A stretch of 64,000 nucleotides of DNA from Planococcus maritimus (GCF_001687625.2 NZ_CP016538.2:2882501-2946500), one strand, 5' to 3'. Shown: positions 46,057 to 57,779, counted from the stretch's first letter. Numbers and translations are program-made. Notes: a model not told the origin generated them from the letters alone.

Positions 46057-46088
46057 AAAAAAGCTCAGGCACACTTGCCTAAGCTTTT
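46057..46088 (-). terminator. Terminator of the SDR pair
   Basis: AAAAGCTTAGGCAA and TTGCCTGAGCTTTT-type arms on the minus strand, followed by a T-run. The stem overlaps the stop codon of the gene at 46079. Confidence 0.8.
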
Positions 46089-46966
46089 CGGTGATCGCCG
46101 GGAGGTTTCTCCCTTTCCTCTGTCGATTCATGCAGAATTCCACTATGCGCCGCTTCAGGCGGCAAATTTTCAAGATTGACCCTAATGAAACGCACTGAAC
46201 GTCTCTCCCTTACTTTCGGTGCCATTCGTGACAATAAGCGCACGGTTTTCATTCGTTTGCCCACTTCCACTACTTCTCTCGGCTCATCGATCAAGTCAAG
46301 GATCACTTTAGCTGCTTGCCGGGGATCGTTCATCGACTTCATATCGACGACTTTCCCTGAATAATTCCCTGCATATTCGAACCACGGTGTATCTGTTGCC
46401 CACGGGAGCACCGAACAAACATGGATGTTGTGGTAGCCTTCGAGTTTCATTTCTTCATTGAGCGCTGAACTGAAACCCAGAACGGCATGCTTGCTGGCGC
46501 TGTAGCCGGTAAAATAGGGAAAAGAGACATCACTCGCTACCGAGCCAATATTGATCAAGGTGCCGCTGCCGATTTCTTTAAAATGGCGAAGCGCAAAATG
46601 ACTGCCGTTGACTGTTCCTTTGACGTTCACTTCCACCATGCGCGTGAGATCTTCAAGCGGAATAGATGTGAACGGGCCAATCACTCCCACACCTGCATTA
46701 TTAATCCATACATCGATTTTCCCAAAACTGGTCAAGGCTTCCTCAAACAACCAAGCGACATCCGCTTCACGACTGACATCCATCGTTACGGCAATGGCAT
46801 TTGGCCCGAGTTCACAAGCAAGCGCTTCGATCAAGCCGGTGCTGCGTGCTGCCAGGACTAAGTTGGCCCCGTCCATAGCCAATTGCCTTGCCACTTCCTT
46901 GCCGAGCCCACTGGAGGCACCGGTGATAACGATTGTCTGGCCGCGCCGTGATTTTTCCTGTGCCAT
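46079..46966 (-). CDS. Short-chain dehydrogenase/reductase (second gene of a SigB-type pair)
   Basis: A 295-residue SDR with TGASSGLGKEVARQ for cofactor binding, INNAGVG, a Ser in NIGSVAS and the catalytic YSASKH. A C-terminal extension of about 50 residues follows the core. The substrate is unknown. The ATG at 46966 is chosen because AAAGGAGGAGG precedes it; that site lies over the last codons of the upstream SDR, so the two genes are tightly coupled. The pair shares one SigB-type promoter (47934-47959). The two proteins are paralogous along their whole length, probably an old tandem duplication that may form a heteromer. Confidence 0.88.
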   Translation of the reverse strand: MAQEKSRRGQTIVITGASSGLGKEVARQLAMDGANLVLAARSTGLIEALACELGPNAIAVTMDVSREADVAWLFEEALTSFGKIDVWINNAGVGVIGPFTSIPLEDLTRMVEVNVKGTVNGSHFALRHFKEIGSGTLINIGSVASDVSFPYFTGYSASKHAVLGFSSALNEEMKLEGYHNIHVCSVLPWATDTPWFEYAGNYSGKVVDMKSMNDPRQAAKVILDLIDEPREVVEVGKRMKTVRLLSRMAPKVRERRSVRFIRVNLENLPPEAAHSGILHESTEEREKPPGDHRKA

Positions 46967-46983
46967 GTCGCCTCCTCCTTTCT

Positions 46984-47889
46984 TCACAGCTCTTCTTGTT
47001 GTTCAAAACGCTCACGCAAATCTCCCGAAACCGCACGCCCTTCCTCAACCGGCTCATGCAGGTTGCCAGAAGTCAGCCCCGCTGCCGGAGCCGATTCGAT
47101 CATTTCTTTTAATTCCTGTCCGCTGAGCCCCTTCGAAAGGGTTGGCACAAGCTGCCCAAAAATAGCCGCTGCTTTCCCTTTGCCAACTTCCAAGTTTTTT
47201 CTCGGTTCATCAATCAAGCCGAGAATGGCTTCGATTACTTTGACCGGGTCATCCGGCGGACCGACCACTATCTCATGCCCAGAATAATTAGCTGCATGTT
47301 CTGTCCATGGAGTGTCCGTGACCCAAGGGTCGATGGAGCAGACATGAATATCCGGAAAATCTTCCAGCCGAAGCTCTTCATACAAGCCATCCGACAAGCC
47401 GCTGACGCCAAATTTACTGCCGGTATAAGCAGCTCCATAGGGCATCGGTATTTTGCTTGCAAATGACGAAACATTAATCAAGGTGCCGTACTTCTGCTCC
47501 CTGAATCGGCGCAACGCAAAATGGCTGCCGTACATAGTGCCCAGCATATTGACTTCGACTATGCGATTCAAATCGCGCAGCGGCGTGTTGGTAAATGGAC
47601 CGTAGACACCGGTTCCAGCGTTATTGATCCACACATCGATGCTGCCAAAATTGTTTACCGCCGCTCTATGCAAACTTTCGACATCTTTTGCATGACTGAC
47701 GTCTGCGGTTACAGGAACGACCAATGGACCCAGTACGCCTGCCAGTTCCTCGATCAATCGCGTCCTGCGGGCAGCAATGACCAATTTCGCCCCTTCTCCC
47801 GCTAAGCGCTCAGCCAACCCACGGCCGATTCCACTTGACGCTCCGGTAATGACTACAACTTTTCCACGCATTGAAGTGTTTGCCCCCAC
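46984..47889 (-). CDS. Short-chain dehydrogenase/reductase (first gene of a SigB-type pair)
   Basis: A 301-residue SDR with TGASSGIGRGLAERL, INNAGTGVYG, a Ser in NVSSFAS and the catalytic YTGSKF. The C-terminal extension (LVPTLSKGLSGQELKEMIES) matches that of the following gene in position but differs in sequence. The start is a GTG at 47889, 8 bases after GGAGG; the ATG 18 bases downstream lacks good spacing. A SigB-like promoter lies 45 bases upstream, so the pair is probably stress-induced. Confidence 0.88.
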   Translation of the reverse strand: MGANTSMRGKVVVITGASSGIGRGLAERLAGEGAKLVIAARRTRLIEELAGVLGPLVVPVTADVSHAKDVESLHRAAVNNFGSIDVWINNAGTGVYGPFTNTPLRDLNRIVEVNMLGTMYGSHFALRRFREQKYGTLINVSSFASKIPMPYGAAYTGSKFGVSGLSDGLYEELRLEDFPDIHVCSIDPWVTDTPWTEHAANYSGHEIVVGPPDDPVKVIEAILGLIDEPRKNLEVGKGKAAAIFGQLVPTLSKGLSGQELKEMIESAPAAGLTSGNLHEPVEEGRAVSGDLRERFEQQEEL

Positions 47890-47959: not shown

Positions 47960-48072
47960 CATTTATGGCAGTGCTTGAGAAGAACAGTTCTAAAGGTACG
48001 GATACAAGAATCACACCTCTACCTAAACACCTACGAAAGGAGAGGGTTTGACCGAAAGTTTCCCATACAAAA

Positions 48073-48100
48073 AGAGCAGCACTTGTATAAGTGCTGCTCT
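48073..48100 (-). terminator. Terminator copy 1 of the duplicated pair at the anti-sigma gene
   Basis: AGAGCAGCACTT and AAGTGCTGCTCT arms. It is identical over 28 bases to 48342-48369. This copy has the better T-run on the minus strand (TTTTTG) and is probably the original. Confidence 0.85.
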
Positions 48101-48341
48101 CCAGAGTGTTGAAGAAGTCCATAGTTCGCTCTCAATTATGAAAGAGCGAACCTTTCTCTATGTCCAACAATCAATGACCACTCTAAGTATTTGGAGAAGC
48201 GTTCGCTCGACTCCTGTGGATCAGCGAGACGACCGAGACCCCGCAAGACGCGAAGCGGCTGAGGAGGCTTGGGCGCGAGCCCACGGAAAGCGAGCGATAA
48301 GCTTCGGAAAATACGACTTTATCACTTTCTCGATTACCTAA
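48101..48341 (+). repeat. Family A intergenic repeat, bracketed by identical terminators
   Basis: A 241-bp non-coding element beginning CCAGAGTGTTGAAGAAG and ending TTTCTCGATTACC. It has the GAAGCGTTCGCTCG ... CGAGCGATAAGCTTC core. A further inner hairpin (AGTTCGCTCTC/GAAAGAGCGAACC) lies at 48122-48153. The flanking 28-bp terminators are identical to each other. Confidence 0.85.
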
Positions 48342-48369
48342 AGAGCAGCACTTGTATAAGTGCTGCTCT
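48342..48369 (-). terminator. Terminator copy 2, next to the anti-sigma gene
   Basis: Identical to 48073-48100. It lies 19 bases beyond the anti-sigma stop codon, but is followed on the minus strand by TTAGG rather than a long T-run, so it may be leaky. Confidence 0.8.
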
Positions 48370-48388
48370 CAGAATAAGTTTGATGCGC

Positions 48389-49138
48389 TTATGCTTCTGG
48401 CTCGATCGCTGCGCTAAGGACAACTTCTCCCTTAGGCGTAGTGTTCCCGCGATTCGGTTCCAATGTGACTGCGATGGTATCCCAGCCTTCTGTGTCTTCT
48501 TCTAGACTGAAGAACACGGCGCCTTCATTTTCCTGGCTCGGCGTGAATGCACCGGTCGGAATCGGCTTACCGTCTTTCAGCAGCCATACCTGATAGACTT
48601 CGTCTCCACTCGTCGGCTGCAGCTGATTTGCCTGAACTAAAAGGTTCAGCGCCCCTTCTTCATGGACCAATGCAGCCGTCCCTGCTCCTGCAAATGTTTC
48701 ACTTGCCTGCAAATCCACTGTCTCAAAAGCAACTTCAGGTGCTGTTGGAGCGTTTGGCTGATCGTTTAGTTCGTAAAACGCGTAGGCGTTTCCGAGCAGC
48801 GAGACGAGCAACGCTGCTGCGACGAGCGGTGTCCACTTTGAAGTCCGGAAGCCCCGTTTTGGCACAGCCACAGGAGGCGCCGTTTTTTCACGTATTGGCG
48901 TCGGTTTTTCGATAGGCGCATCTTGCTCACTCTCATCGAAGACCGTATCCAAAATACGAGCTTTCATGCCGGCATCCGGCTGTACCGGTTCCGCGAGATA
49001 AGGGAGCTCTCCTGTCGCATCTACGATATCACGACATTCCGGACACTCCGCTAAATGTGCTTCAAATTGTTTTTGTTCTTGTTCGTTCAAAGTGCCGTTC
49101 AAATAATCGATCAATTGATCACAATTCACGTTTGTCAT
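48389..49138 (-). CDS. Anti-sigma factor (zinc-finger ZAS domain plus RskA domain)
   Basis: A 249-residue membrane anti-sigma factor. The N-terminal ZAS domain has the H-x3-C-x2-C motif (HLAECPECRDIV, residues about 28-39) that clamps an ECF sigma factor in the cytoplasm. One membrane segment (WTPLVAAALLVSLLGNAYAF) lies near residues 102-121. The outer part is an RskA/anti-sigma-K domain (EVYQVWLLKDGKPIPTGAF). It overlaps the sigma gene by 20 bases and so is translationally coupled to it. Signals at the cell surface are expected to act through regulated proteolysis of this protein. It is probably cotranscribed from the ECF promoter at 49781-49817. Confidence 0.92.
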   Translation of the reverse strand: MTNVNCDQLIDYLNGTLNEQEQKQFEAHLAECPECRDIVDATGELPYLAEPVQPDAGMKARILDTVFDESEQDAPIEKPTPIREKTAPPVAVPKRGFRTSKWTPLVAAALLVSLLGNAYAFYELNDQPNAPTAPEVAFETVDLQASETFAGAGTAALVHEEGALNLLVQANQLQPTSGDEVYQVWLLKDGKPIPTGAFTPSQENEGAVFFSLEEDTEGWDTIAVTLEPNRGNTTPKGEVVLSAAIEPEA

Positions 49139-49697
49139 CCAGAACTCCCCCTTCCTGCACTGCTTGCAAGGATGTTTTCAATTTTTTCAATGCTAAGCGT
49201 ATTCGACTCTTGACCGTTCCGAGCGGAATGCCGCATGTTTCTGCGATGGTTTCATGTGTGTAGCCTTTAAAATAAAATAGTTGTACCATTTTCTGTTGCT
49301 CCTCCGATAAATGCCGGACGGCTTGATGAATCTGGTCGCTTTTCTCTTGCCATTCGGCAGTTTCTTCCACTGAAGACTCTGTGCTTTCCACTTCGGCAAT
49401 CTCATCCAATGGAACAGATGGTTTTTTCTGCTTGCGGATCAAATCCACTGCCGAATTACGCGACATCGTTACTAGCCAGGCGACAAACTTGCCCTTGCTT
49501 TCATCATAACTGCCGATTCCCCGCCATACTTTGACGAATACTTCCTGCAGCGCTTCTTCTGCCAAATCCCGATCACGCGTCATTTTACACAGGTACGAAT
49601 ATAGCATTTTTTCGTAGCGGTCGTACAATTCCTCAAGCGCATCCTTGTCCTTGCTCCTGACGCGCTCGTATAGCAATGCATCTGAAATTTTTTCCAT
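49119..49697 (-). CDS. ECF RNA polymerase sigma factor (SigK-like)
   Basis: A 192-residue extracytoplasmic-function sigma factor. Region 2 runs from ALEELYDRYEKMLYSYLCKMTRDRDLAEEALQEVFVKVWR to VAWLVTMSRNSAVDLIRK. Region 4 is QQKMVQLFYFKGYTHETIAETCGIPLGTVKSRIRLALKKL, with a clear helix-turn-helix for the -35 element. The linker is acidic (EVESTESSVEETAEW). It is partnered with the RskA-type anti-sigma factor directly downstream. The promoter 84 bases upstream shares its sequence and spacing with promoters before the sortase gene at 50062 and the anchored-protein gene at 52189, indicating autoregulation and a small regulon. Confidence 0.94.
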   Translation of the reverse strand: MEKISDALLYERVRSKDKDALEELYDRYEKMLYSYLCKMTRDRDLAEEALQEVFVKVWRGIGSYDESKGKFVAWLVTMSRNSAVDLIRKQKKPSVPLDEIAEVESTESSVEETAEWQEKSDQIHQAVRHLSEEQQKMVQLFYFKGYTHETIAETCGIPLGTVKSRIRLALKKLKTSLQAVQEGGVLDDKREL

Positions 49698-49780
49698 ACC
49701 GTTTCCCCTTTGTCGCAGATTTCGTATACTTAGCTTACTACACTCTGCAGCATTTAGGTTGTGTAACTCTTTTTTGGTTC

Positions 49781-49817
49781 TTACTTATTCAACGCACAAG
49801 AGGCCAAATTAGTTCAC
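49781..49817 (-). promoter_or_regulatory. ECF-type promoter of the sigma/anti-sigma operon
   Basis: On the minus strand GTGAACTAA (49809-49817), 14 bases, CGTTGAATAAGTAA (49781-49794). It shares -35, spacing and -10 with 49892-49918 and 53592-53618. Confidence 0.7.
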
Positions 49818-49891
49818 TTTTCCTGATTTTTTCTTTCGCACAACAAAACGGCTGTCCGTAATCGTCCATTGCCAAAAAACACATTAAAAAA

Positions 49892-49918
49892 GTGATCCAA
49901 ACAACGAATTTTTACGTT
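49892..49918 (+). promoter_or_regulatory. ECF-type promoter of the sortase gene
   Basis: GTGATCCAA (49892-49900), 14 bases, CGTT (49915-49918) followed by ATTACTA. It is divergent from the sigma promoter and about 145 bases before the sortase start codon. Confidence 0.65.
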
Positions 49919-50061
49919 ATTACTATAAGAGGCCATTTAGATCACAAACGGCCAAGTCCGGCAAGAAAGCAAAGAAACCTGAAGCTTTCTGTTTCCAAAG
50001 CCGGCCATTATCATTCAAAATGAACATATTGATTAACGAACGATGGAAGGTGGATGTGCAG

Positions 50062-51045
50062 ATGAGACAATATTTAATCATGGGATTGGCTACAGCTCTT
50101 TGTATTACCCTATTCTTCATTCTCGACCCGTTGAATAGCCAAGATTCACAAAAGACCGAAAGCCAGACGGCCGACACCACCCAGACAGCCGCTAAACCGG
50201 CTGAAGAAAAAACGCCAAGCGAACGGCTTGATACCCAGTATAAAGACAAAATTGCTGAGTTTCCTGTTCGCCCCGTGCAACAGGAAAAGCTGGCAGAACT
50301 GCGCCAAGAACGAATCGACAATTTGCTCGGTATGAAACCGGTACGCATTTCAATTCCTTCTATAGGAGTCGATGCCGCCATTGAAGAAACCGGCGTATTG
50401 GACAACGGCGAGATGGGCGTCCCGGATGATGTCGACCAAGTCGGCTGGTTCGCTCCAGGCTTTAAAGCAGGCGCAGAAGGCAATACCGTTCTTGCCGGCC
50501 ACGTTGACAGCCTGACAGGCCCCGCCGTCTTTTACAAACTAGATCAATTGAAAACAGGCGATCAATTTACGCTGACAGACAAAGATGGACGCGAAATGGT
50601 ATTTGAAGTGCGCGGCACCTCAAGTTACATCACAGACGAGGCACCCGTACAGGAAATCTTCGGACGTTCTGACAAACGTATGGTGAACCTTATCACATGC
50701 ACTGGCGATTACAATCGCGATATCGGTTCTCACGAAGAACGCCTAGTCGTTTCCGCAGAACTCATCTCCGATTCGGCCATGAAAGAACAAGCACCTGACG
50801 CTCCTGATAACGTGAAGCTTAATACAGCTTCATTATCATGGTACGCCGTTCGTGACGATTCTGTTGTTGGCTACCGTGTCTATGAAGAAGATATTGAAAG
50901 CGGCGAAGCAGAGAAAATTGCAACCATCTCTTTATTCGAACGCAAAAGCATTGCGCTTGAAGCCGACGAATCGAAACGCTATTACGTCGTTTCTGTTAAC
51001 GTCGACTTGGAAGAATCCGAAAAAGCTTATGTAGCTGAAGAATAG
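50062..51045 (+). CDS. Class F sortase with C-terminal fibronectin-III-like domain
   Basis: A 327-residue transpeptidase. An N-terminal signal-anchor (YLIMGLATALCITLFFIL) is followed by a Gln/Thr/Ala-rich linker. The sortase barrel spans about residues 93-235, with catalytic His147 (LAGHVDS), Cys213 (LITCTGDYN) and Arg227 (EERLVVSA). Residues 245-327 look like an FN3-type domain (SLSWYAVRDDSVVGYRVYEED), an unusual addition for a class F sortase. The ATG at 50062 has AAGGTGG 8 bases upstream. It is divergent from the ECF sigma operon and shares its promoter motif. The likely substrate is the anchored protein at 52189. Confidence 0.9.
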   Translation: MRQYLIMGLATALCITLFFILDPLNSQDSQKTESQTADTTQTAAKPAEEKTPSERLDTQYKDKIAEFPVRPVQQEKLAELRQERIDNLLGMKPVRISIPSIGVDAAIEETGVLDNGEMGVPDDVDQVGWFAPGFKAGAEGNTVLAGHVDSLTGPAVFYKLDQLKTGDQFTLTDKDGREMVFEVRGTSSYITDEAPVQEIFGRSDKRMVNLITCTGDYNRDIGSHEERLVVSAELISDSAMKEQAPDAPDNVKLNTASLSWYAVRDDSVVGYRVYEEDIESGEAEKIATISLFERKSIALEADESKRYYVVSVNVDLEESEKAYVAEE

Positions 51046-51047
51046 CA

Positions 51048-51084
51048 AAATCCCTGTCCAGCATTGCCGGACAGGGATTTTTTT
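51048..51084 (+). terminator. Terminator of the sortase gene
   Basis: AAATCCCTGTCC and GGACAGGGATTT arms followed by TTTT, directly after the stop codon. Confidence 0.9.
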
Positions 51085-51577
51085 GCGTTCGACGCTGAGT
51101 GCCTAGGGTGAGCCGACGCGACATGTGAAAATTTCTATCTAGGTATCATATAACTCCCCTTGCCCCGACATCTGCAAGCAAATGCATCGCAAAAAACATT
51201 GCAAGCAGATGCGTCTCAAATGAATCGGCGGCGATTAGTAAAACGAATCTCGAGTTAATATTCAGTATTCAGTAACATTTTTATAAAAAACGTCTCGTTA
51301 CTTTAGCTCACGCTCAACCAGGGAAGCGATTCCCCCACTAGCCGGAACGATGTATGGAAGCCGATTCTAATTAAACATACACATCTTAACGAAATCTCTG
51401 AGCCGCCGAGCGCCTAGGGTGAGCCGACGCCGCAAGACGGATGCTCTTTCCGGCTTGAGGCATGAGGCCATCCCAAAGCCCGGGCGGCGCCTCTTCCATA
51501 AGACATCCATCCAAAACCCAAAACATTTCCACACCCCTCGTCCGACTCTCAGCAAGCGATTCCAGGATAGAAAAAGC
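51085..51577 (-). repeat. Family B intergenic repeat region (reverse orientation)
   Basis: No gene is supported here. In reverse complement it repeats the family B order: TCGGCTCACCCTAGGCGCTC, CGGCGGCT, GATTTCGTT and GGGGGAATCGCTTCC. The CCTAGGGTGAGCCGACGC segment occurs twice (51,101-51,118 and 51,413-51,430). An internal GCATTTGCTTGCAGATG block matches the extra block of the unit at 19,226-19,520. It separates the sortase gene from its probable substrate gene. Confidence 0.65.
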
Positions 51578-52078
51578 TTAACTGCCTTTCTTAAAGCTCA
51601 GCGTCGTCACTGTCAGAAGAATAGTCACCATACCGATAATCTGGACAATCGCCAACTTATCGCCAAGCAGCCCAATCCCGAACAACGAAGCCGTCACCGG
51701 TTCTACTATCGCAATAATCGATGCAGTAGAAGGAGCGGTCCACTGAATGTCGATCGTAGGCCGGCAAGCAATAGCCAAAAACCAAAGAGCATCACTTGAA
51801 CTGAATACAGAAGCCGCTTCCTCGACATTTATAAAGAAGGCAAAAACGACACTGAAAGCAATAAAAGCAAAAGTCAAAACCACCTGTGGCCTGGCGTTTT
51901 CAGAAGCATTCTTGAAATCAAATATGAACAAGGTACCGTAAAGCCCCGCTCCAAGACCAGTGGCGACACCAATGAGATTGACTGTAGAAGAGCCCTTATT
52001 ATAGGCTTCCGTCAATAAGACGATGCCCGTGAGAACACTGGCGATACAGCTCCATTTAAACCAAGTCGGTTTTTCCAA
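51578..52078 (-). pseudogene. EamA-type drug/metabolite transporter, degraded remnant
   Basis: A 166-residue frame that matches the second half of an EamA (DMT) carrier, which normally has about 300 residues and ten membrane segments. It begins MEKPTWFKWSCIASVLTGIVLLTEA, equivalent to the fourth membrane segment, so roughly the first hundred residues are absent. In the middle, SSDALWFLAIA joins CRPTIDIQWTAPSTASIIAIVEPV directly, which implies an internal deletion of most of one or two membrane segments. No ribosome binding site precedes the ATG. The C-terminal EPVTASLFG motif is intact. Surrounding repeat sequence fits decay by rearrangement. Confidence 0.75.
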
Positions 52079-52140
52079 TTGATTGATTGAAAATAATTTC
52101 TAGCCAGAAATTCTTATGTACGTTGTTTTTTCCATAGAAA

Positions 52141-52171
52141 AAACCGGAGAAGCTTGGGGCTTCTCCGGTTT
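52141..52171 (-). terminator. Terminator of the anchored His-rich protein gene
   Basis: AAACCGGAGAAGC and CTTCTCCGGTTT arms followed by TTTTTTC on the minus strand, 18 bases beyond the stop codon. Confidence 0.88.
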
Positions 52172-52188
52172 CCTAAGTTATGTCGTTC

Positions 52189-53544
52189 TTATTGTTTTCT
52201 TGTACGAACCGATACTGTTGTGATCAACGCTGCAAGCAATAGTCCAGCAAGTGCCCATAGGTAAGGCGCTGTGGAGTTACCGCTCATGCCGCCCATGCCT
52301 GTTGATGGCATTTCTGATGGCATTTCCGCTTCACCGAACTGTTCTGGGAACTGGTCAGTGATTGCTGCAGACAAGCCAGCTGCTGGCATGTTCATGTGTG
52401 CGTAAGCTTCACGGATCGAAGCGTAAGCTGTTTCGTAATCTCCAGCAACATAGCTGTCGAATGCTGTTAGCAATTGTTCAACGTGTGCTGTCAATCCTTC
52501 TTCAAGTGCGTCAGCCGGTACGCGTCCTTCTGTTGCTGAATCCAGGAATGCTGCTTGGTCCATGATGTATTGATCCAACTCAGCGCGCGCTTGTTCTTGG
52601 CCTTCTTCGTTGCCTTCACCAGTTGCTGTTACATAGTCGACGAAATAGCCGATGTGGGATTTCCACGTTTCTTCAAACTGTGCTCCGGCTTCTTCACCGT
52701 AAACAGAACCGACTGCTGCAGAAAGGTCATCTGCGTTCGCAAGTAGTGCTCCAGCTGCCTGGTCGAAGCTTTCCGCTCCATCAGCACCGTCTTGCATAGC
52801 CATTGCTGCAAGTCCAGCATGCTCTGTGAACGTCATGTTAAGGCTAGCACGGAGGTCAACCGCTGGTGTATCAGGGTTTGTGTTGTTGAATTTGTCAGGG
52901 AATTGATCTGTGATCGCAATTGACAAAGTTTCAGCGAACATGCTCATGTGGTGAATGGATTCGCGCTCCCACTCATAAGCTGTTTCGAAGTCGCCTTCAA
53001 CGTATGCATCAAATGAACCGATCAATTGATCAACGTGTGCGTCCAATCCTTTGACGACTGCTTCTTCAGACAAACGTCCTTCTGTTGCTGCATCAAAGAA
53101 TTTAGCTTGTTCAACTTTGTATTCTTCCAATTCAGCGAGTGCTTGTTTTTTGCCTTCTTCGTTGCCTTCTGCTGTTGCTGTTACATAATCAACGAAATAG
53201 CCGATGTGTGACTGCCAGATTGCATCGAATTGCTCTCCGCCTTCTTCACCGTAAACAGAAGCAACTGCCGCTTTCAAGTCTGCTGCGTTAGCGAGCAATG
53301 CGCCAGACGCCTGTTCGAAATCTTCAGCGCCGTCTACGCCTTTACGCATAGCTTCAACTGCGAGGAATGCGTGCTCCGTCAATACTGTATCAAGGGCGAT
53401 GCGAAGTTCTGCCGCTTCCGTAGCTGTCGGCGACTCCATTTGCATTTGGCTATGTCCTCCGTGGTCATCTGCAAGTGCTGCTGTTGGTACGAGTAGGGAT
53501 AGGCTTAGTGGTAGTGCCACCATCAATTTATTCATTTTCATCAT
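52189..53544 (-). CDS. Sortase-anchored secreted protein with duplicated His/Met-rich helical domains
   Basis: A 451-residue wall protein. Residues 1-25 are a signal peptide (MNKLMVALPLSLSLLVPTAALA). The mature start DDHGGHSQMQME is His/Met-rich. Two homologous domains of about 175 residues follow (about 42-220 and 228-400). Each repeats TEHAxLAxxAM, GALLANAxDLxAAV, VYGEEgGxQF, WxSHIGYFVDYVTAT, AHVxQLxxxFDxYV and HMxM in the same order. Four conserved His per domain, spread over helices, suggest a metal- or cofactor-binding helical bundle. The C-terminus has MPSTG, a hydrophobic segment and RTRKQ, a sortase signal with Met in place of Leu. An ECF promoter shared with the sigma and sortase genes lies upstream. 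Function unknown. Confidence 0.88.
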   Translation of the reverse strand: MMKMNKLMVALPLSLSLLVPTAALADDHGGHSQMQMESPTATEAAELRIALDTVLTEHAFLAVEAMRKGVDGAEDFEQASGALLANAADLKAAVASVYGEEGGEQFDAIWQSHIGYFVDYVTATAEGNEEGKKQALAELEEYKVEQAKFFDAATEGRLSEEAVVKGLDAHVDQLIGSFDAYVEGDFETAYEWERESIHHMSMFAETLSIAITDQFPDKFNNTNPDTPAVDLRASLNMTFTEHAGLAAMAMQDGADGAESFDQAAGALLANADDLSAAVGSVYGEEAGAQFEETWKSHIGYFVDYVTATGEGNEEGQEQARAELDQYIMDQAAFLDSATEGRVPADALEEGLTAHVEQLLTAFDSYVAGDYETAYASIREAYAHMNMPAAGLSAAITDQFPEQFGEAEMPSEMPSTGMGGMSGNSTAPYLWALAGLLLAALITTVSVRTRKQ

Positions 53545-53591
53545 CCATCTCTCCTTTGTTTTTGTTATTGTTTTTTTCGTTCTACTTACTC

Positions 53592-53618
53592 AACGGAGAG
53601 CGGATCAGTTTAGATCAC
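53592..53618 (-). promoter_or_regulatory. ECF-type promoter of the anchored protein gene
   Basis: On the minus strand GTGATCTAA (53610-53618), 14 bases, CGTT (53592-53595) followed by GAGTAAGTA. It is nearly identical to the sigma operon promoter (49781-49817). It lies 48 bases before the start codon. Confidence 0.72.
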
Positions 53619-54218: not shown

Positions 54219-54605
54219 AGTACTAGAACATTTCAGTACTTCGCTTACAAGTTTTCCATTTTGGGTATGGAAAACAGCCTATTGAAAATACTAAAGGACG
54301 TCATGAGTCTGCTCACGCCTCAAATTAGCTAACACCATCGCTCTTGTATAAAATCCCGCTTTGCTCGCTGAAGACTTCACGGTTCGCCGCCAAATCGCTG
54401 CCGTTACACCATTTCTAGCTTATTTCAGTACATCTCACAGAATAGACGATGTTACTTATCTTCTGTAATAGTTTTTTATTCTCTATCGATAATTGTCATG
54501 AATTTCTTTTCAGTATAACTTTTATAGGTGTTTTTTCTGTACTTTTGTACCGCTCAGATGGGGTATAATAGTCCTCATAATACAATCACGAAGGGACTGT
54601 CTCAT
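54219..54605. other. Intergenic region without a gene
   Basis: About 390 bases without a credible open frame. A hairpin GTTTTCCAT/ATGGAAAAC (54251-54275) follows the DinB gene but lacks a T-run. The rest is AT-rich before the diguanylate cyclase gene. No repeat of family A or B was seen. Confidence 0.5.
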
Positions 54606-57600
54606 ATGCCTCTCGAATTTGCACGCCTGGTTTTTATGGCGTTTTCTGTTATGACAGCCATCGCCGCTTCCTATATTGCGCTCCTTTTAATCGGCCGGAT
54701 TGCCGATAGGAGCCGCACGCATCCGCTCTGGTGGGTCATTGGCAGCTCACTGGTGTTCGGCACGGGCATTTTTTCCATGCATTTCATCGGCATCTTGACT
54801 TATCATTCCGCATCTCCCGTGCAATACGATCCGATTTTGCTGTGCATTTCGCTGCTCGGAGCATTCGGTGCAGCATTTCCCGCTTTCTATGTATTGCGTA
54901 CAACGAATCCTCCTAAAAGACATTTGTATTTCAGCGGGTTTTTCATTGGATTCGGGGTGTTGTTCATGCATTACACCGGCAATGCAGCCGCTCAAGTGCC
55001 GGGCAATGCCCAGTTCGCCTTAATGCCGTTTCTTTTATCGATAGCCATCGCATTCGGTTTTTCAATTGCCGCTTTGCGCATTTTCTCGCGCACTCGCAAA
55101 CAGCCGGAATCTTCGGCCAGAAAACTTCTCAGCGCTATAGTTCTTGGCGTAATGATCTCAGGTGCGCATTATGCCGGGATGCAAGCCGTCAGCTATTCCA
55201 CTGCCTCCGCAGGTCCCGCTTCTTTCACGAACATGGGCCTCGCGTTCGTGGTGTCGGCGCTGATTGTTTTGCTGCTGGCCATTGCAGGGTATTTGGCTTA
55301 TCTCGACCGTAAACAATTGATCAATGAAAAGCTTTATTTGAGCAAAATCCGTGAAAGTGAACGGCGATTTCGCAGGCTTGCAGAAATATCTCCAGAAGCG
55401 ATCGCTATTCACAGCGACGGCAAGCTCTTGTATGTGAATAAAGCCTGCCTGGAAATGTTTGGTGAAACCGACGCTTATAAATTGATTGGAACTGCCGTGC
55501 TGGATTATGTCCACCCCGACTACCACGACATAGCAAAGTCCCGTATTGCTTCCATGAATCAAGGACTCACCACTCCCCCCGCTGAGCAATTGTGGGTAAC
55601 GCCAAAAGGCATCTCTCACGAAGTTGAGCTGACGGGCATGAGCATCGAATTTGAAGGCACCTCTGCTGTACAATTACTGATTCGCGATATTACAGTCCAG
55701 AAACAAATTGAACGTGAGCTTGAATTGAACCGACAGCGTTACGAATCGCTATTCGAAAACAATCCTGACGGGATTTTTTCAATGGATTTGTCTGGGCGTT
55801 TAATAGACGTCAACGACTCGCTCGTTCACTTGCTTGGCTATTCACGGAACGAACTGATTGAAAAAACGTTCCACGCACTGGCAGATCACCGTCAGTTGAA
55901 AACCACCGAGACAAAATTTCAAATGGCGCTTAATGGCATCACTCAAAATTTTGAAACAGTAGGTTTACACAAATCTGGCCGACGCGTGTCGTTGCGCATC
56001 ACCAATATGCCGATTTTGACGGACGGGCAAGTAACGGGCGTCTACGGCATCGCTAAAGACATCTCTGCTGAAAAAGGTGCACTGGCGATGCTTGCGGAAA
56101 GTGAAGAAAAATACCGTTCGCTCTTTGACTACAATTTGGACGCAGTTTTTGAAATGGATAAAGATGGGCGTTTCGTCAACGCGAACTCCATGACAGAAGA
56201 ATTGAGCGACTACACGCGCGCGGAATTGATCGGCATCGATTTCACACCGCTGATCGCAGAAAATCTTGAACGCGTACAAAGCTTTTTCGCATCCGCCGTT
56301 TCTGGTGAAGCGGTCAATTTCGAACAGCGCATCAAACGGAAAGACGGCAACATCATCGAAGTCGACATCAATGCCGTGCCAAAACGGCGCAACGGCAAAA
56401 TTGACGGCGTCTTTGCGATTGTTCGCGACATCACAGAGAAAAAAGCGTCAGAACAAAAAATCAATAACCTGGCCTTTACGGACCAGTTGACGGAGCTTCC
56501 AAACCGGCACTGGTTCTATCAAAATATCCGAGATGTACTTTCGAGAACGGAAGAACATCAGCAAAAAATCGCTGTCTTGCTGGTCGATTTCGACGACTTC
56601 AAGAACGTCAACGACTTGCTCGGGCATTTCGGCGGTGACCAATTCCTGAAAATTGTCGCCAACCGTATCCATTCCTGCTTGGGTCCACGGGATACCATTT
56701 CACGTTTTGGGGGCGATGAGTTTATCATCGTATCGGAAAATACGACCGAAGCTAAAGCCCACGCACTTGCCGAAACGATTCTCGACGTTATGCGTGAGCC
56801 AGTGCAATTGCTCGGCCAGGAATTTTCTGTGACCTTGAGCATCGGCATCGCGGTTCAGACAGGCTGTGAAAGCGACGGGGAAGAACTCATTAAGGAAGCC
56901 GATTTTGCCATGTATTCGGCAAAAGAGAATGGCAAAAACAATGTTCAAGTATTTACCCGCGAACTCAATAGCCAAATGACACGGAAAACCCAACTGGAAC
57001 AAGCGCTAAAAAAAGCGCTCGATGAACAGCAATTCGCCCTTCATTACCAGCCGCAAATCAACTTGGCAAGCGGTGAAGTGATCGGCTATGAGGCGCTTCT
57101 TCGCTGGCAATCGCCGCTTGGCAACGTATCCCCGTCGGAATTCATCCCTATTGCTGAAGAAACCGGCTGGATTGTGCCGATTGGCGAATGGGCGCTGCGC
57201 CAAGCCTGCCGCGACAGCAAAGAATTTTCAGCACTGGGCCACGCAGCCCAAAAAATTTCGGTCAATGTGTCAGCGCGTCAATTCAAGGATCCCGACTTCA
57301 GCGAAAAAGTGCGCATCATTTTTGAAGAAGAACAAGTGGATGCGACACGCTTTGAAATCGAGATCACCGAAAGCGTCATGCTCGACATCGAGCAGTCGGC
57401 ACGCATCATTTGCGAGCTGAAGGAGCTCGGCCTGCGCATCGCCATCGATGATTTCGGTGCTGGCTATTCTTCATTGAACGTTGTTAAAAATGTCGAAATC
57501 GATACCTTGAAAATCGACAAATCCTTGATTGATGAAGTCCTGATTAATCGACGGAACTTGTTCATCCTCGCCGCCATCATCGAAGTCGGCAAAAACCTTG

Positions 57601-57779
57601 ATGCCCATATCGTCATTGAAGGCATCGAGCTCGAAGAACAGGCTGAACTATTGAAACCATTTGGGATTCTCGGGCAAGGCTATTTGTTCAGCCGGCCGTT
57701 GCCACCGGGAAGCCTCGACTCTTTTCTCAGCGAGTCTACGGCCGTCACTGCCCGCACCGCACCAAAACCAATACAATAA
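54606..57779 (+). CDS. MHYT-PAS-GGDEF-EAL cyclic-di-GMP turnover protein
   Basis: A 1057-residue membrane signalling protein. Residues 1-235 hold seven membrane segments with three MHYT-type motifs (SMHFIG, FMHYTG, GAHYAG), a proposed sensor of O2, CO or NO through copper. Three PAS domains follow (about 265-380, 385-505 and 510-625). The GGDEF domain has an intact RFGGDEF active site near residue 702, so cyclase activity is possible. The EAL domain has YEALLRW near residue 828, DDFGAGYSS and KIDKSLI, all intact, so phosphodiesterase activity is possible. The ATG at 54606 has AAGGG about 10 bases upstream and begins the first membrane segment. It is a single-gene unit. Confidence 0.93.
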   Translation: MPLEFARLVFMAFSVMTAIAASYIALLLIGRIADRSRTHPLWWVIGSSLVFGTGIFSMHFIGILTYHSASPVQYDPILLCISLLGAFGAAFPAFYVLRTTNPPKRHLYFSGFFIGFGVLFMHYTGNAAAQVPGNAQFALMPFLLSIAIAFGFSIAALRIFSRTRKQPESSARKLLSAIVLGVMISGAHYAGMQAVSYSTASAGPASFTNMGLAFVVSALIVLLLAIAGYLAYLDRKQLINEKLYLSKIRESERRFRRLAEISPEAIAIHSDGKLLYVNKACLEMFGETDAYKLIGTAVLDYVHPDYHDIAKSRIASMNQGLTTPPAEQLWVTPKGISHEVELTGMSIEFEGTSAVQLLIRDITVQKQIERELELNRQRYESLFENNPDGIFSMDLSGRLIDVNDSLVHLLGYSRNELIEKTFHALADHRQLKTTETKFQMALNGITQNFETVGLHKSGRRVSLRITNMPILTDGQVTGVYGIAKDISAEKGALAMLAESEEKYRSLFDYNLDAVFEMDKDGRFVNANSMTEELSDYTRAELIGIDFTPLIAENLERVQSFFASAVSGEAVNFEQRIKRKDGNIIEVDINAVPKRRNGKIDGVFAIVRDITEKKASEQKINNLAFTDQLTELPNRHWFYQNIRDVLSRTEEHQQKIAVLLVDFDDFKNVNDLLGHFGGDQFLKIVANRIHSCLGPRDTISRFGGDEFIIVSENTTEAKAHALAETILDVMREPVQLLGQEFSVTLSIGIAVQTGCESDGEELIKEADFAMYSAKENGKNNVQVFTRELNSQMTRKTQLEQALKKALDEQQFALHYQPQINLASGEVIGYEALLRWQSPLGNVSPSEFIPIAEETGWIVPIGEWALRQACRDSKEFSALGHAAQKISVNVSARQFKDPDFSEKVRIIFEEEQVDATRFEIEITESVMLDIEQSARIICELKELGLRIAIDDFGAGYSSLNVVKNVEIDTLKIDKSLIDEVLINRRNLFILAAIIEVGKNLDAHIVIEGIELEEQAELLKPFGILGQGYLFSRPLPPGSLDSFLSESTAVTARTAPKPIQ

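Follow-up and report, generated by a model that had tools for sequence, protein, structure and literature searches.

Sortase operons dedicated to their own substrates are known from the SrtB/Isd and class C pilus systems, in which the sortase adjoins, and is co-regulated with, the protein that it handles. Among the regulators of extracytoplasmic function (ECF) sigma factors, anti-sigma factors of the RskA type generally answer envelope signals. What class F sortases do physiologically has been called unknown or inconclusive (PMC13251363, PMC13257024), and the class F sortase of Cutibacterium (Propionibacterium) acnes recognises LPXTG (PMC13257024). The locus considered here lies in a stretch of 64,000 nt from the Planococcus maritimus genome (GCF_001687625.2, NZ_CP016538.2:2882501-2946500; ‘the window’) and comprises four genes, which encode a SigK-like ECF sigma factor, an RskA-type transmembrane anti-sigma factor, a class F-like sortase with a C-terminal extension resembling a fibronectin type III (FN3) domain, and an exported protein with a sortase-type sorting signal (the anchored protein). 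Motif matches, conserved gene order, co-occurrence and a correspondence between sortase architecture and substrate suggest that these genes probably form part of an ECF-sigma regulon that is dedicated to wall display and includes the sortase and its substrates. Compared with SrtB/Isd and class C pilus operons, the locus differs in sortase class, signal, substrate fold and type of regulator. The parts are of known kinds. The open literature yielded no account of their combination, of the signal motif or of the substrate family; searches there for an ECF sigma factor with a sortase and this anchored family, or for MPXTG, returned nothing relevant, with subscription journals lying outside the search and absence not proven.

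Motif and sorting-signal searches covered the whole genome (3.28 Mb). The motif GTGAWCYAAW-N13-CGTT has exactly four matches, and these precede the sigma gene, the sortase gene, the anchored-protein gene and a second anchored gene (3,076,170-3,077,498), which lies about 140 kb away and encodes a product 40 % identical to the first. Chance expectation for the exact motif, estimated from base frequencies, is about 0.2 per genome, and the reversed pattern, used as a control, gave one exact match in the same genome. An earlier note on this DNA had described the four genes as a self-contained module; that description falls, because the second motif-bearing MPxTGxGG protein is encoded outside the window. 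Within the genus the exact motif is present in 38 of 40 genomes, and 60 of 91 exact motifs (36 genomes) sit 36–132 bp upstream of a same-strand gene of the anchored family, with the spacing from motif to start codon mostly 36–49 bp. The remaining motifs with a readable downstream gene are mostly upstream of the sigma or sortase gene. A relaxed form of the motif occurs within 130 bp of the anchored gene at 69 of 79 loci of named genomes, against a shuffled mean of 0.05. The common promoter motif that the earlier note saw as linking the genes thus marks, in both genome and genus searches, almost only members of the set.

Motif copies were also seen before three other kinds of gene. Two genomes of the genus have one upstream of a flavodoxin-like oxidoreductase gene. 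In a related genus, two genomes have one ahead of a PepSY_TM gene, which includes a His/Met-rich segment, and in Rossellomorea and one more genus the motif precedes the gene of an exported protein whose sequence ends near PPSQPPQQS.

The scan of named genomes yielded 358 relatives. The best 80 of these 358 come from genera that include Planococcus, Jeotgalibacillus, Domibacillus, Fictibacillus, Sutcliffiella, Metabacillus, Peribacillus, Rossellomorea, Exiguobacterium, Paenisporosarcina, Halobacillus, Priestia and Paenibacillus. At 37 chosen loci a sortase is nearby in 26, a sigma gene in 19 and an anti-sigma gene in 19. Most often the genes run in the order sigma, anti-sigma, anchored protein and sortase on one strand, and colinear loci of this kind are found in Paenisporosarcina, Rossellomorea, Metabacillus, Exiguobacterium, Chryseomicrobium, Jeotgalibacillus and others; the arrangement in the window reads as a rearranged version of it. 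Clustering of the neighbours of the chosen loci revealed no fifth conserved gene, large generic families excepted. Across 399 Bacilli genomes, a class F-like sortase is present in all 64 that have a strong anchored match (E ≤1e-150) and in 31 of the 335 others. Weaker anchored matches (1e-110 to 1e-149), mostly Paenibacillus-like, end before the sorting signal, and the sortase is mostly missing from those genomes. The Bacillales survey proposed in the earlier note therefore finds the neighbourhood conserved in many genera and the anchored family co-occurring with a class F-like sortase. Several genomes carry at least three copies of the anchored gene (G029, G030, G034, G013 and G007, the last with up to seven), and in P. 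versutus one copy is on a plasmid.

Two points about the motif count against a dedicated regulon. A set of Exiguobacterium loci has a different upstream sequence and forms the main exception to the relaxed motif, and ECF sigma factors other than this one could be its readers. ECF promoters are alike, and the four genes might be unrelated neighbours, with the motif either a general ECF promoter used by several sigma factors or a chance likeness. Such an explanation is nevertheless quite improbable, given that exact matches in the genome are limited to four, each before a member of the set, that the short spacing to most start codons holds across the genus, and that gene order is kept over many genera.

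All four genes were located where the earlier note had placed them. The sigma and anti-sigma genes overlap by 20 bp on the minus strand, the sortase gene lies on the opposite strand, and the anchored gene is found further on, on the minus strand. The sigma protein (192 aa) consists of regions 2 and 4 only (PF04542 and PF08281, both above cut-off) and scores 121 bits against TIGR02937 (cut-off 42.9). Its closest solved relative is SigK of Mycobacterium tuberculosis (4nqw, E 9e-24), yet it stays below the cut-off of the SigK family itself (NCBIfam PRK09646; 136.6 vs 226 bits). In the anti-sigma protein, zf-HC2 (PF13490; 36.8 bits, cut-off 22.2), RskA_C (PF10099; 66.7 bits, cut-off 29.4) and NCBIfam NF052375 (113.6 bits, cut-off 100) are all recognized. 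With domains above their cut-offs and the genes adjoining, the proposed pairing of an ECF sigma factor with an RskA-type anti-sigma factor is borne out. RskA_C is shared with the anti-sigma factor of the mycobacterial SigK-RskA pair. Apart from the family score of its sigma factor, the Planococcus pair differs from SigK-RskA in that its anti-sigma factor retains a zinc-finger motif and in its apparent targets, which are a sortase and the substrates of that sortase.

The sortase open reading frame spans 50020-51045 on the plus strand, and the ATG at 50062, which stands behind AAGGTGG, is the likelier start. The product matches Pfam Sortase (PF04203) with 82.6 bits (cut-off 26.6), its predicted model matches known sortases (best E 5e-10), and the catalytic residues H147, C213 and R227 are invariant across 44 relatives; one row, from a plasmid record, was left out of the alignment for structure prediction. 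Class F is by far the best-scoring class (132.9 bits, with every other class at or below 42), yet the score misses the cut-off of NF033748 for class F (166 bits), which no sortase in the 399 Bacilli genomes reaches; the enzyme is for this reason called class F-like. Class F as the nearest class therefore stands from the earlier note, and full membership under the curated cut-off does not. The C-terminal extension is all-beta in the model, and fibronectin type III chains are the top matches when its profile is compared with the Protein Data Bank (PDB; best E 2e-5). Pfam fn3 gives a weak match in 7 of 17 orthologues (best E 0.0019) and no match in the window copy. Model and profile search agree in supporting the added FN3-like domain that had been noted before.

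Relatives of the sortase fall into two main architectures, one short with an N-terminal lipobox, the other FN3-tailed and nearly always membrane-anchored. A lipobox is carried by most class F-like sortases of the set, and these are therefore probably lipoproteins, an uncommon state for sortases. The short lipobox sortases adjoin genes of subfamily A of the anchored family (41 cases). FN3-tailed sortases adjoin genes of subfamily B (13 cases), none adjoins a same-strand subfamily A gene, and six more, all from close relatives of the window, have no adjacent same-strand anchored gene. Sortase architecture thus tracks substrate subfamily. Like the class F enzyme of C. acnes, its nearest class by score, the Planococcus sortase has the invariant His, Cys and Arg set; it differs from that enzyme in the MPxTGxGG form of its presumed signals, in its apparent sigma regulon and in the FN3-like tail, and most of its Bacillales relatives differ additionally in bearing a lipobox.

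The sortases also supply points that weigh against the regulon as proposed. There is a small third group, short and without a lipobox. The window sortase is FN3-tailed, the type that elsewhere pairs with subfamily B, whereas the anchored protein of the window belongs to subfamily A; the subfamily B gene of this genome is the motif-bearing paralogue 140 kb away. A second class F-like sortase, this one with a lipobox, is encoded at 0.88 Mb (878834) and adjoins a DUF4397 protein ending MPTTGLGT. It is conceivable, though on balance doubtful, that the window sortase serves the subfamily B protein only and that anchoring of the subfamily A protein falls to the second class F-like sortase or to another enzyme. 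The distribution of the two architectures beside A and B genes, together with the presence of a lipobox class F-like enzyme in the same genome, speaks for such a division of labour. However, an MPSTGxGG signal is common to both Planococcus anchored proteins, and it is the window sortase that has the shared motif, the 0.88 Mb sortase not being among the motif matches.

The 0.88 Mb locus resembles further class F-like loci in relatives. Six of 19 such loci have an adjacent substrate ending MPxTGLG[GT] or APETGQGG, with DUF4397 in those checked, and the other 13 had no adjacent substrate under the signal filter used. Sortase and signal-bearing substrate adjoin here too, but the substrate is a DUF4397 protein and the P. 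maritimus locus has no exact motif copy. The two remaining sortases of the genome adjoin proteins with LPxTA signals (LPKTA and LPDTA). Since substrates adjacent to class F-like sortases end in motifs of this form, it is reasonable to infer that MPxTGxG is the signal of class F-like sortases in Bacillales.

In the regulon that is favoured here, the SigK-like sigma factor would be held at the membrane by the RskA-type anti-sigma factor and freed by an envelope signal. The freed sigma factor would read GTGAWCYAAW-N13-CGTT promoters, on which transcription of the set would depend, and would raise expression of its own operon, the sortase and the two MPxTGxGG proteins. The sortase would then cut the MPxTGxGG signals and link both proteins to the wall.

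The anchored protein has a signal peptide at its N-terminus and ends with MPSTGMGG, a hydrophobic stretch and RTRKQ. Only two sites found in the whole genome could encode MPxTGxGG, one in each anchored gene, and of 79 relatives of the anchored gene all but one (78) have MPx[TA]G[MLF]GG. The sortase signal reported in the earlier note is thus present, in the form MPxTGxGG and not LPxTG. No Pfam or NCBIfam family matches the protein above cut-off. Its two halves, each a helical domain of about 180 aa, are 61 % identical, and a high-confidence prediction shows the first as a helical bundle (AlphaFold2, pLDDT 96, pTM 0.88), in keeping with the two duplicated helical domains described earlier. Comparison of the fold with the PDB yielded no clear relative, with a best E of 0.32 with Foldseek and a best Z of 9.5, for a designed bundle, with VIA-align; the sequence profile of the domain gave chance-level matches alone.

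Across 88 copies of the helical domain four residues (H17, N45, Y57 and H129) never vary, H72 is kept in 84, M159 in 83, and M25 in more than 90 %. By a helical-wheel estimate H17, H72, H129, M25 and M159 face inward. Additionally, His and Met are abundant in the mature N-termini of subfamily A, a feature that recurs across genera. These conserved inward-facing residues, the His/Met-rich N-termini and the motif-bearing PepSY_TM gene raise the possibility that the paired bundles, displayed at the cell surface, hold a metal ion or haem through their inward His and Met, a tentative suggestion that may well prove wrong. Helical-wheel angles are not distances, and the subfamily B paralogue lacks H158 and has altered surroundings of H72 in its first domain, so the case for a single shared metal site is weakened.

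The regulon could also be as proposed with bundles that are structural or sensory and hold neither metal nor haem, binding an envelope component or small ligand and perhaps feeding back on the outer domain of the anti-sigma factor. This is a serious contender, if somewhat short of an even chance. The usual response of RskA-type anti-sigma factors to envelope signals would suit it, as would the loss of some His residues in the second class of paralogues, and ligand-binding sensor domains appear among the VIA-align rows, albeit with Z values usual for unrelated bundles. A structural or sensory role would not readily explain the unusual conservation and inward orientation of His and Met in an exported protein that otherwise varies, or why His/Met-rich N-termini recur.

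Public records of Planococcus plasmids call homologues of the anchored protein ‘copper amine oxidase’. The name can be traced to Paenibacillus-type homologues in which the double domain is fused to Cu_amine_oxidN1 (PF07833), located C-terminally in two of the three checked, where it replaces the sorting signal. These proteins share the duplicated helical domain with the Planococcus protein, and some lie behind the motif or beside a sigma/anti-sigma pair. The Planococcus protein itself has no Cu_amine_oxidN1, and no amine oxidase domain was found in it with Pfam or NCBIfam. Domain content thus contradicts the name given in the plasmid records, and the chance that the anchored protein is a copper amine oxidase is negligible.

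Table 1. Features of the sigma, anti-sigma, sortase and anchored-protein locus, in window coordinates.
Feature	Position	Strand	Basis or remarks
Anti-sigma gene, RskA-type transmembrane (zf-HC2 H-x3-C-x2-C, one transmembrane helix, RskA_C outer domain)	48389-49138	-	Pfam, NCBIfam
ECF sigma gene, SigK-like	49119-49697	-	Sigma70_r2 and r4_2; 4nqw relative
Motif copy upstream of sigma gene: GTGAACTAATTTGGCCTCTTGTGCGTT	49791-49817	-	Exact match; same motif before sigma gene in relatives
Motif copy upstream of sortase gene: GTGATCCAAACAACGAATTTTTACGTT	49892-49918	+	Exact match; same motif in orthologous loci
Class F-like sortase, N-terminal membrane anchor	50062-51045	+	PF04203, class scores, alignments, model
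FN3-like C-terminal extension of sortase	50779-51042	+	Profile match to fibronectin type III chains
Anchored-protein gene, exported, sortase-type, 451 aa	52189-53544	-	Signal peptide, His/Met-rich mature N-terminus, two helical domains, sorting signal
Helical domain 1 of anchored protein	52873-53421	-	AlphaFold2 model
Helical domain 2 of anchored protein	52327-52869	-	Alignment, 61 % identity to domain 1
Coding site of sorting signal MPSTGMGG	52289-52311	-	Followed by hydrophobic stretch and RTRKQ tail
Motif copy upstream of anchored gene: GTGATCTAAACTGATCCGCTCTCCGTT	53592-53618	-	Exact match; relaxed form in 69/79 relatives

Several other elements of the window lie close to the locus. A dispersed repeat (48100-48340, with a 126-base core at 48190-48315) recurs in the genome in 40 or more copies of 91–100 % identity. 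Here it stands between two copies of the hairpin GAGCAGCACTTGTATAAGTGCTGCTC (48072-48101 and 48342-48371), as if inserted into a terminator. Between the sortase and anchored genes is an EamA-family gene (51578-52078) that encodes 166 aa, roughly half of what is normal for the family, and is possibly a truncated remnant. Tandem short-chain dehydrogenase genes with a 4-base overlap occupy 46079-47889, and a large c-di-GMP protein with MHYT, PAS repeats, GGDEF and EAL is encoded at 54528-57779.

Taken at its broadest, the system would be a widespread and undescribed form of sigma-controlled wall display in Bacillales, with metal- or haem-capturing MPxTGxGG bundles served by dedicated class F-like sortases, of which many are lipoproteins; in that full form the proposal is rather unlikely to hold. 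The conserved set brings together a class F-like sortase, its probable substrates, an MPxTGxGG signal and a likely regulator in culturable environmental bacteria. With the complete set present in culturable hosts, the role and specificity of class F enzymes become directly testable. The misleading ‘copper amine oxidase’ name of the substrate family is corrected, and class F sortases gain a concrete candidate job, the fixation to the wall of display proteins that would be under the control of a sigma factor.

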